A DNA stretch of 43,532 nt from an uncultured Lachnospiraceae bacterium (GTDB lineage: Bacteria; Bacillota; Clostridia; Lachnospirales; Lachnospiraceae). Positions within the stretch are counted from its first letter, which is position 1; every line of letters begins with the position of its first letter. Position numbers and translations under genes: made by a program. The notes below the pieces were generated by a model. The model did not search any database, was not told the DNA's origin, and saw nothing but the letters and a program-made list of their open reading frames with translations. Positions 18,969 to 28,421 of the stretch are shown here, piece after piece. Location of the stretch: contig CANQVT010000022.1 of assembly GCA_947627365.1 (NCBI GenBank), positions 1 to 43,532 on the forward strand, in the 5' to 3' direction.

Positions 18969-21557
18969 CTATGAAAAGTCTAATTTTTCTTCTGTCCTTC
19001 TCCTTCGAGAGCCCGGCAAAACATATGCTGCAACCGTTGACGCAAACATGAGAAGTCCCAATGCCAGAAGCGCGATTCCTTGCGCCTTGCCCCGCTTTGG
19101 CCCGTCGTCCTCGGATTCCATACTGGCGGACAACCCCGCCATGCGCGCACTCTTCTTCTCCGTCGTCGTGCGAGCCTCCTCCATTTCTGTCTGGCTCTCG
19201 TCTGCCTTATCCTTTTTCTTGTTCAGCAGTTTTTCGCGAGCGCTGAGCCGTTTCTTTACATATTCCGGCACCTGCTTTGTACGTCTGGAAATATAAACCG
19301 GCGCTTCCTCCGTCCAAAACTCATTTCCGGCCATGTCGCAGAGATACACCTGCAATGTCTGCCATTCCCCCGACGCCTTCAGCGGAATCTCCATTGTTTC
19401 ATCCGAAATCTGGCCCGCCTCTTCCTCCATATATAACTCGCTGTCAAGATACACCCTCACTGTCTTCAGCTCTATATTGTCATATGGCGTGAGATAAGCC
19501 GTAAGAGCCTCTGCCTCATAGATCTGCCGTTCGATCCCGGTCAAAGTACAATCCGGAGCCGTCCAGTCCAGGACAAAGGTCACTTTTTTCTCCTGCATCC
19601 CGGTGTCGCTTTTGTTCTCCGCCGCGTCCTCGGAGGAGAGAAGGATCTCATAGACTCCCTCTTTTGAAAAGAACTCCGCCGGAATGAGATAGCAATACTG
19701 CTTCCAGGAATCCTTGCTCCCCTGCATCGTGACCTGGTAGTCCCGTCCTCTTTTCAGCTCCTCCAACACACCGTCCCGCCTGCAGAAGATTCGTGATTCC
19801 CCAACGTAATCAATGTTCGTCTCGTAGAAGGTCACGTCCTCGGCCTTCGTCAGGTAGCGCTGCTGCAGACTTTGCTTTGTCGACTGGCCAAGATCATATA
19901 CCGACCCGAACCGATTCACCGAAAAACGAATTTCTCTCTCGGCGGTATTGCCGGCCACATCCTCCGCCCTTACGCTCAGATGATAGACGTCGTCATACTC
20001 GCGCTGTCTCGGTATGTCAAGATACTCTGCCTGCGCTCCCGCCTGCGACTCTTCCTGACTTTTGACCGCAGGCGCCTTATTTTCATTTACCCCTGCAAAT
20101 TCTATCTTCATGGAGTCCTTTTTATAATTAATGTCTTCCACGGCGACTCGGATCCGCACCGCCCCGGAATTGGCTGTCTGATCCCCGACGCCCTCAATTG
20201 ACACCTCAGGAGGCTTCCGGTCAATACATATGGGATTGCTCTGCGAAAACGCAAGGTTTCCCACCTGGTCCTCCGTCCTGACAAACACCTGAAAAATGCC
20301 CTCTTCGCGGATCACGAGCTGATCACCGTTCCTGCAGGATGTCCACGACGCTGTTTCAGGATTGCCCTGCAGCGCTCCGTCCGCGCTGCTTGGAAGGACC
20401 GCATATGCGGCTGATCTCAACCCGCTCTTTCCGTCCGGCGCAACCGCCACGGAAACCTCTGCGGACTGCGCCGCGTAATACACGCCGTTCTCAAATGTCC
20501 CGCTCACTGATACTTCTGCCTGCGGAACCTCGCCATCCACGCAGTAAGCCTCCTGAACCATTTCGGATTCCTTCAGAATCATGCCGTCCTTATTTACCGC
20601 TTTCAGGCTGAACATCAACGTTCCATCCTCTGTTATCCCCTGTTTTCCTGTGCCTCCGCTGTATCCGCCGGCTTCCATTGTACTTATGTAAAGATTTGTG
20701 CCATAGCGGATCCACAAACGATCCTCCGCGTCCCGGTACCATGCGCCCGGATCGCCTGTCACCTCATAATGCACGCCCCTTTGGATCTTCTCCAGTATCT
20801 TCTCCGTTTCCGCAGGCGGCTCGCTCTCAGGAGGCAGTTCCGTCTCCGGCTCTCCGCTGCTCTCCTGCTTCTGCTCTGCATCCGGCTCCACGTCTCCCTC
20901 CGGACTTTGCTCCGTCTCCAACTCTCCGTCGCTCTCTTGACCCTGTTCCGCATCCGATTCCGTGGTCTCACTCTCCCCTTCTATTTCCGTCCCATCGGAC
21001 TCTACTGTCTCTGTGTTCTCGCTTTCGTTTTCGCTTTCGCTGTCATTCTCGCTTTCACTCTCGCCCTCTTCTTCGCTCTCGTCTCCGGATTCACTTTCCT
21101 CTTCGCTCCAGGACTCACTCTCACTCTTAGCTTCGCTTTCGTCCCAGAATTCCCTTTCAGATTCACTCTCAGGTTCGCTTTCATCCTGGAATTCGCTTTC
21201 AGATTCACTCTCGGATTCGCTTTCGGATTCGCTCTCAGATTCGCTTTCGAATTCCTCTTCGAATCCGCTTTCTTCCTCCGTTTTCGGCGTCGGCTCCTGA
21301 GCATTCGTTTTCATATTCTCACTGATATCTGCAGCCGTTTCCGCATCTGCAGCCAACGCCGGTTCTTGTTCAGAAGTCAACGCGCTCGCGCCAATACCGG
21401 CCGTTCCTGCGGACAGCACGCATAATACGATAGCCAGACTGCGCGCCAGATATTTTCTGTAATACGCTTTTTTCTTATATTCGGCCTTTCGCCTGTAATC
21501 CTTTCTTCTCTCATCCTTACTCTTCCTTTTCTGTGCCAAGCTCATTTCCCCTTTCAT
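18969..21557 (-). CDS. Large Ser-Glu-rich membrane protein with Ig-like modules
   Basis: 862 residues. A Lys/Arg-rich cytoplasmic start of about 37 residues leads into a membrane anchor (38-60), an outer acidic tract of Ser-Glu dipeptides (about 100-235), at least three Ig/Big-like beta modules (about 345-780; typical ends such as VYYAAQSAEVSVAV, VRTEDQVGNLAF and VRAEDVAGNTAE) and a second membrane segment (about 830-850) ending in RRRRTEEK. It resembles cell-surface proteins with extracellular DNA- or sugar-binding Ig repeats. The start overlaps the kinase gene by 41 bp; ATG 21557 and the ATG four codons on are both possible. Function unknown; probably a surface partner of the kinase. Confidence 0.75.
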   Translation of the reverse strand: MKGEMSLAQKRKSKDERRKDYRRKAEYKKKAYYRKYLARSLAIVLCVLSAGTAGIGASALTSEQEPALAADAETAADISENMKTNAQEPTPKTEEESGFEEEFESESESESESESESESESEFQDESEPESESEREFWDESEAKSESESWSEEESESGDESEEEGESESENDSESENESENTETVESDGTEIEGESETTESDAEQGQESDGELETEQSPEGDVEPDAEQKQESSGEPETELPPESEPPAETEKILEKIQRGVHYEVTGDPGAWYRDAEDRLWIRYGTNLYISTMEAGGYSGGTGKQGITEDGTLMFSLKAVNKDGMILKESEMVQEAYCVDGEVPQAEVSVSGTFENGVYYAAQSAEVSVAVAPDGKSGLRSAAYAVLPSSADGALQGNPETASWTSCRNGDQLVIREEGIFQVFVRTEDQVGNLAFSQSNPICIDRKPPEVSIEGVGDQTANSGAVRIRVAVEDINYKKDSMKIEFAGVNENKAPAVKSQEESQAGAQAEYLDIPRQREYDDVYHLSVRAEDVAGNTAEREIRFSVNRFGSVYDLGQSTKQSLQQRYLTKAEDVTFYETNIDYVGESRIFCRRDGVLEELKRGRDYQVTMQGSKDSWKQYCYLIPAEFFSKEGVYEILLSSEDAAENKSDTGMQEKKVTFVLDWTAPDCTLTGIERQIYEAEALTAYLTPYDNIELKTVRVYLDSELYMEEEAGQISDETMEIPLKASGEWQTLQVYLCDMAGNEFWTEEAPVYISRRTKQVPEYVKKRLSAREKLLNKKKDKADESQTEMEEARTTTEKKSARMAGLSASMESEDDGPKRGKAQGIALLALGLLMFASTVAAYVLPGSRRRRTEEKLDFS
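21010..21280 (-). repeat. Ser-Glu codon repeat tract
   Basis: Within the 862-residue protein gene the coding strand repeats 6-bp units of the form GA(A/G)(T/A)C(N) encoding (Ser-Glu)n with scattered Asp and Trp. On the other strand it reads as TCGCTTTCGGATTCGCTC-like units. Such a tract is prone to slippage and length change between strains. Confidence 0.7.
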
Positions 21558-27783: not shown

Positions 27784-27838
27784 ACTTTGTAAATTATATA
27801 CAATACACTGCAGGCTGAATCTGCAGACGCAAAAAGGA

Positions 27839-28303
27839 TCATGCGGCGGCTCTCTCTGTCCCGCAATCACGTCTCCCGGACGCCGCTTTGCGTGAAACAG
27901 GCGCCGTCTTAGCGCATCTGTACCCTGAGACAGGCTGTGGCGCCGGGCGAAGACCCGCGAGCCGGTCCAGCACACAGCTCGCTCCGATCAGCGCAGCCGC
28001 CGTCAGGATTACAAACAGAACCCACAAAAACGCCAGCACCGGAAGCGGCGACATGCTCACCCGAATCCCGAACGCTGCCAGCACGATGACCTCCTCCAAA
28101 AGTCCCGCTGCCGCGCAGAACCTCCGGCCCTCTTTCGTCAGTTCTCTGTATAGATTCTCACTGTCTGCTCCTGCGGCTTTTCTTCTATCATTTTTCCCAC
28201 AATTCTTCCCGCAGCTTCTTCCGTATTCTCTTCCGCACTCCGCTATGTACTCTCTGCCGTATGCTTCCCTGCTCTCCGGTCTGCAGCTCTGTGTTCTTCT
28301 CAT
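27839..28303 (-). CDS. Small orphan membrane protein under LexA-type control
   Basis: 154 residues, no family recognised. A Cys/Arg/Tyr/Gly-rich N-terminus with GREY...CG units (about 10-37) leads to a helical stretch and a membrane segment (about 86-111, LPVLAFLWVLFVILTAAALIGA), then a basic tail. GGGAGAG stands seven bases before the ATG at 28303. Three GAAC-N4-GTTC boxes and a good promoter lie just upstream and can only serve this gene on this strand. Small single-span proteins under LexA include the division inhibitors YneA, SidA and ChiZ; this one has neither LysM nor their sequence, so the role is inferred from regulation and topology alone. A strong terminator is found at 27673-27644. 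Confidence 0.6.
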   Translation of the reverse strand: MRRTQSCRPESREAYGREYIAECGREYGRSCGKNCGKNDRRKAAGADSENLYRELTKEGRRFCAAAGLLEEVIVLAAFGIRVSMSPLPVLAFLWVLFVILTAAALIGASCVLDRLAGLRPAPQPVSGYRCAKTAPVSRKAASGRRDCGTERAAA

Positions 28304-28335
28304 ATTCGTACTCTCCCAAAATCCCCTTATTTGTT

Positions 28336-28421
28336 CGAACGCAAGTTCAGAACATTTGTTCTGTTTTGCATTCTACTACAGCTTTGGAAATTTTGCAAGC
28401 ACTTTTTCGAACTTTTGTTCG
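28336..28421 (-). promoter_or_regulatory. SOS promoter with three LexA-type boxes
   Basis: Boxes: CGAACGCAAGTTC (28336-28348), CAGAACATTTGTTCTG (28348-28363, perfect palindrome) and CGAACTTTTGTTCG (28408-28421, outer five bases of each half fully paired). All match the Gram-positive LexA form CGAAC-N4-GTTCG. On the minus strand TTGCAA (28398-28393) and TAGAAT (28375-28370) are 17 bases apart; the middle box covers the start site and the distal box adjoins the -35. Bound LexA would shut this promoter. Confidence 0.8.

Follow-up and report, generated by a model that had tools for sequence, protein, structure and literature searches.

What is encoded behind a promoter crowded with LexA boxes in an uncultured Lachnospiraceae bacterium, and what might the product do when DNA is damaged? 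The stretch analyzed (43.5 kb, hereafter the window, always meaning the whole stretch) carries a 154-codon frame, here called X, on the minus strand. X is proposed, as the best explanation, to represent an undescribed family of small membrane proteins from one Lachnospiraceae genus and, very probably, repressed by LexA.

LexA boxes, promoter and frame

Exact GAACN4GTTC boxes were found in the window at 28337, 28350 and 28409 only, all within 84 bp, in agreement with the three boxes of the initial annotation. The number expected in the window had a mean of 0.76, and three were reached in 3 of 100 shuffles, a count that ignores the clustering within 84 bp. Genome-wide, exact boxes number 20 and copies of a control pattern (the box read backwards) 62; three within 84 bp are therefore not attributed to chance. 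The boxes flank a promoter of the form TTGCAA-17-TAGAAT (28398-28370, minus strand), as annotated. The box at the start site had been called a perfect 16-bp palindrome; CAGAACATTTGTTCTG pairs at only 7 of 8 positions, with T/T at the centre, and so is not one. The frame opens with ATG and is preceded at 7 nt by GGGAGAG, again as first described, and this putative ribosome-binding site recurs in six relatives (L101, L103, L104, L106, L108 and L110). A terminator had also been assigned to X, and a hairpin does follow the gene; it is weak (6-pair stem, tail TGTATTGTAT). Coordinates are collected in Table 1.

Table 1. Features of the X locus in window coordinates.
Feature	Position	Strand	Basis
Weak terminator-like hairpin	27808..27826	-	After X; 6-pair stem
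X gene (154-residue small membrane protein)	27839..28303, stop codon included	-	ORF list; homologues; core dN/dS
C-terminal Ala-Ala-Ala, possible ssrA-like degradation signal	27842..27850	-	AA enrichment; tmRNA tag
Predicted hydrophobic helix 2, residues 87-117	27953..28045	-	AlphaFold; Trp94 invariant in both alignments
Predicted hydrophobic helix 1, residues 57-78	28070..28135	-	AlphaFold; Glu71 invariant in ten-row alignment
Ribosome-binding site GGGAGAG	28311..28317	-	7 nt before X ATG; sequence
LexA box 3	28337..28348		Exact; adjoins box 2; mainly in closest relatives
LexA box 2	28350..28361		Exact; at expected transcription start; position conserved
-10 hexamer TAGAAT, spacer 17	28370..28375	-	Promoter search
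-35 hexamer TTGCAA	28393..28398	-	TTGC[AC][AT] in 21 of 29 members
LexA box 1	28409..28420		Exact GAACN4GTTC, upstream of -35; upstream boxes also in other members

Conservation of X and of its boxes

Homologues of X were found in 29 of 98 relatives searched, its own genome included, and every one belongs to the same genus. A profile built from these 29 (A1) was run against the full set of 47 genus genomes. A strong homologue was obtained in 29 of them, own genome included (E 3.3e-20 or better), and was missing from 18, three of which gave weak matches (E 4e-4 to 9e-3). Fourteen of the X-bearing genomes fall among the 66 of 98 relatives with a completeness of 90% or more and a contamination of 5% or less; in the genus, 25 of the 47 genomes reach this quality, so the absence of X elsewhere does not come solely from incomplete genomes. 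In one genome counted as lacking X (G018), the place of X upstream of the phosphatase is taken by a 198-aa frame (locus L170) whose core is hydrophobic and which has three boxes with one mismatch each; this frame may be a 30th, diverged member.

The frame is conserved at protein level, as its initial description presupposed: besides the spread over 29 of 47 genus genomes, the core (residues 49-118) gave dN/dS of 0.03-0.27 (median about 0.14; 21 pairs from seven close members), and the tails mostly 0.3-1 in the same seven members. These ratios indicate that the core is under purifying selection and the tails much less so, and the frame is judged a real gene. Median pairwise identity was 33% for X, whereas one neighbour reached 80% and the phosphatase 63%. 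Distances in X correlated with those of neighbours (Spearman 0.58 in 16 genomes, 0.43 in 15; 0 of 999 permutations reached either value), as is expected of a fast-evolving gene inherited together with its neighbours. In a family set of 397 genomes from 334 genera, strong matches were limited to two genomes of the same genus. Twelve weak matches were obtained in 11 genomes of other genera; a few of these resemble small two-helix proteins, but none of the 12 has an exact box upstream. Five small proteins of other genera that look two-helical are weakly similar to the X core and have no LexA boxes (L056-L060, from G407, G384, G199, G385 and G165); in L058 and L059 a Cys-containing segment precedes the helices.

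Homologues for the most part keep the boxes, as an SOS gene would. An exact box lies upstream of X in 22 of 29 loci. The interval that opens 450 bp ahead of the core and closes at the core start, 13,630 bp in all, contains 48 exact boxes, versus 3 in the remaining 283,918 bp of the same loci (two of the three directly before recA); the density is thus 333 times as high as in the flanks. When one mismatch is tolerated, 27 of 29 loci have a box near the start. Three of the seven loci without an exact box (L123, L129 and L130) have X at another locus, and a fourth, L121, has one lone one-mismatch box, near chance. With one mismatch allowed, L034, L041 and L044, which have no exact box, show two or three; L027 and L029 show a single one-mismatch box each, near chance level; and L035 and L036 show none near the start. 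A similar promoter lies between the boxes of other members, with a -35 of TTGC[AC][AT] in 21 of 29, hexamers that are partly selected because the script chose the best -35/-10 before a box.

One form of the window's promoter, CGAACAAAAGTTCG-N42..52-GAACARRYGTTC, was scanned over 84,980 species genomes (the own genome was possibly left out), and 10 matching stretches were returned, all on contigs of the X family. The record of the tenth (L105) is truncated; its contig is as long as G033:C26, where X lies. All ten records are metagenome assemblies, nine labelled Lachnospiraceae and one Clostridiales. None of the 18 genomes lacking a strong X homologue, among them G018 (still a possible member), has a general double-box promoter made of exact boxes.

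LexA is encoded in the own genome, with a one-mismatch box upstream of its gene. Exact boxes lie directly before four other genes: recA and uvrB, both of which we take to be such from their sequence, a gene for a hexapeptide acetyltransferase, and a radical-SAM gene that barely passes its Pfam cut-off. Boxes that overlap the promoter and are kept upstream of orthologues, together with LexA and boxed known SOS genes in the same genome, are among the marks of a member of a LexA regulon, and these were found for X. Since the boxes are retained with X and the promoter form is confined to contigs of its family, control of X by the SOS system through LexA is very likely. LexA would bind these boxes and, because its sites flank the promoter and are kept by most relatives, X would very probably be induced by DNA damage. 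The regulatory half of the earlier description of X as a new SOS effector is thus well supported by boxes, promoter and conservation; the effector half is taken up below.

That the boxes belong to a small RNA or to the adjacent beta-glucosidase gene, X being incidental, is highly improbable: poorly conserved tails and 18 of 47 genomes without strong X would suit it, but the X frame begins 32-49 bp past the second box in nine of the ten promoter matches, and the beta-glucosidase gene lies upstream on the same strand, ends before the promoter and gives way to other upstream genes in other loci.

Two observations concern LexA in the genus at large. In 37 of 47 lexA loci (46 genomes; L045, L179-L224), the 300 bp upstream of lexA contain neither an exact GAAC-N4-GTTC box nor one with a single mismatch, and eight of the 47 have AGAACATATGTGCTA in common; autoregulation of lexA may be weak in this genus or may run via another site. 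In the own genome (contig C68), L046:534-3032 contains two exact boxes 29 bp apart, followed by a radical-SAM gene and a DUF4130 gene, which may form a repair pair under SOS control.

A predicted hairpin and its relation to known families

X contains two hydrophobic segments, residues 62-80 (mean hydropathy 2.01) and 89-107 (2.71), and two helices were predicted by AlphaFold from a ten-row alignment; the one clear membrane span of the initial annotation is therefore incorrect. Confidence in the model was low (mean pLDDT 53.8; block means 64-86 in the helices and about 36-43 in the tails), and structural fold matches would accordingly carry little meaning. The conserved unit is about 65 residues long and comprises a YRELT motif, helix 1 with its Glu and helix 2 with its Trp. 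The protein had been characterized as Cys/Arg-rich, a description that stresses the tails, its poorly conserved part. Arg and Lys abound in both tails but not in the short inter-helix loop, which suggests, on charge and a low-confidence model, that X is probably a two-helix hairpin with both termini in the cytoplasm (N-in/C-in).

The last two residues are Ala-Ala in 11 of 28 complete X members and not in the other 17; the same ending occurs in 1 of 161 ORFs of conserved neighbours and in 4 of 280 long ORFs. These background sets include shadow frames and ORFs truncated at the edge of a locus. The 11 comprise seven close relatives and four more distant members (L119, L120, L132 and L134). The tmRNA tag of the own genome is AEDNLALAA, and ClpXP recognizes tails of this type. 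The C-terminal -AA of X is thus a possible ssrA-like degradation signal.

No convincing match to X was obtained in Pfam, NCBIfam, PHROGs, PADLOC or PDB, and the family is absent from these libraries, consistent with the earlier statement that the protein has no recognized domain. The best matches were PF07332 in Pfam (E 6e-4), E 0.0086 in NCBIfam, E 0.028 in PHROGs, none up to 0.01 in PADLOC and one designed protein in PDB (E 0.0076). In the parts drawn on of the open literature (preprints aside) on LexA or SOS in Lachnospiraceae and on LexA-controlled division proteins with two TM segments, no such hairpin family was found.

Small membrane proteins that respond to damage were compared with X. 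SidA, DidA, DivS and ChiZ are SOS or damage division inhibitors; they are lineage-specific small membrane proteins, as X is, and are set beside it by description only. TisB-like SOS membrane toxins share LexA control and membrane location with X, whereas TisB is much shorter, has a single helix and is paired with an antisense RNA. The part of PMC6851548 drawn on here describes the Gram-positive SOS brakes, among them the YneA/SosA type, as small single-span membrane proteins, divergent in sequence between clades, commonly encoded beside lexA and in several cases bearing LysM; filamentation of a C. difficile lexA mutant is described in the part drawn on of PMC4689574. Like X, proteins of the YneA/SosA type are divergent outside a short core, may carry a C-terminal turnover signal and are under LexA control, which in X appears direct from the boxes. 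Unlike them, with their single span and external C-terminus, X has two helices, no LysM and a charge pattern suggesting inner tails, and in relatives it lies near recA or a HAD phosphatase. The likeness to single-span SOS inhibitors drawn at the outset thus holds for a small membrane protein behind LexA boxes and fails for the number of spans.

The YneA model (NF010723) scored above its cut-off in 0 of the 47 genus genomes. Sub-threshold matches occurred in 46 of 47, mostly in open frames of more than 200 residues; the two in the own genome are weak and lie on contigs other than that of X. X is on contig C22 and lexA on C17 of that genome, so X is not divergent from lexA. A divergent gene with LysM (by Pfam) and a TM segment was found beside lexA in 1 of 47 lexA loci (46 genomes), in a test that needed a LysM motif, placed LysM-free SosA-like proteins outside its scope and had less than 510 bp upstream in four loci. 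This gene, YneA-like, accompanies a second lexA of G038 (L141:429-1770) that has an exact box upstream (L182); G038 has another lexA on C25 and lacks a strong X, and the contig with the second lexA may be a stray. No similarity was detected between X and this single YneA-like protein. An exchange of X for YneA between genomes was considered and is not established, the G038 gene being the only LysM+TM neighbour of lexA found.

Proposed role and competing readings

In undamaged cells, LexA dimers bound to the boxes ahead of the -35 and over the start site would keep the promoter shut. Upon DNA damage, RecA would make LexA cleave itself and X would be produced, in many relatives probably together with a phosphoglycolate-phosphatase-like HAD phosphatase. 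X would insert as a two-helix hairpin with its Arg/Lys-rich tails in the cytoplasm, would most likely delay division or growth until repair is complete, and could then be removed through its C-terminal -AA tail, read by ClpXP much as a tmRNA tag is. Coding, conservation, boxes and promoter are well supported by sequence comparison, and topology and proteolysis are more conjectural; the action of X as a brake is the least certain part, given about an even chance. A LexA-repressed hairpin that brakes division or growth is nonetheless the best explanation at that same level, since LexA control, hairpin, fast evolution and possible degradation tag fit, by analogy with known brakes, an SOS-brake role that seems vacant. 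Against it count the 18 of 47 genomes without strong X, the seven loci without an exact box, the -AA end missing from most members and a position away from lexA. Proposed more tentatively, the genus, seemingly without a lexA-linked YneA, might run its damage checkpoint through this unrelated LexA-box hairpin, with a phosphatase co-produced in many species and a tmRNA-tag-like off-switch.

The neighbourhood of X bears on a second reading. In 16 of 29 loci, a motif search placed a HAD phosphatase next to X, downstream; that of L114, which was scanned, best fits phosphoglycolate phosphatase models, below their cut-offs. The gap between the two genes ranges from a 46 bp overlap to 246 bp (15 loci), and in five loci they overlap or are at most 60 bp apart. 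Farther downstream, many loci carry a gene presumed from its sequence to be ammonium-transporter-like and then a conserved protein of about 200 aa, which has no Pfam or NCBIfam match and in our judgement looks HD-like. recA lies upstream of X in four loci (L126, L131, L135 and L136), and the two are separated by a recX gene (scanned in L126). A DNA-deoxyinosine glycosylase adjoins X in L126, above its cut-off, and its motif occurs next to X in L127. Phosphatase and glycosylase together would favour a small SOS repair operon to which X belongs as an accessory membrane protein, with a part in repair metabolism or in maintaining the envelope and none in a checkpoint. This is considered unlikely: in the window, L111, L112, L113 and L115, X and its promoter are retained, and the next conserved gene follows without an intervening phosphatase. 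Moreover, the HD-like neighbour was located in 13 of the 18 genomes without strong X. Exact boxes are absent from all 13 of these loci, which include L170 with its diverged candidate, and seven of them retain the phosphatase.

A third reading takes X as a damage-induced membrane toxin or holin-like pore that depolarizes or lyses the cell, and is rated as quite unlikely. Class II holins are N-in/C-in hairpins with, like X, two hydrophobic helices, and PF07332 (Holin-X) was weakly matched by 7 of 29 members (best at the E value given above). The core of the window protein, however, reaches 19.5 bits against a gathering cut-off of 28.4. An Amidase_3 protein and a Ser/Thr kinase are encoded a few genes downstream in the window (both scanned), and an amidase-related ORF occurs in many loci, which would favour this reading, but no exact box lies near the amidase. 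An origin of X in phages or plasmids was also considered and rejected: of the phage, plasmid and viral searches, one gave no relative of the window protein and two gave one match each (E 0.4 and 0.6). The holin reading is further opposed by the lack of phage context found and by distances in X that track those of chromosomal neighbours.

SOS division brakes vary widely across lineages, and X, if it acts as the division or growth brake proposed, would add another with a different topology and genomic home, in a genus represented here by metagenome assemblies only. The precise promoter, the conserved residues (YREL motif, Glu71 and Trp94) and the proposed off-switch make X directly testable. Elsewhere in the window, the Ser/Thr kinase gene is adjoined by a large ORF (18969-21557, minus strand) that looks secreted and has a long run of repeats rich in Glu and Ser.
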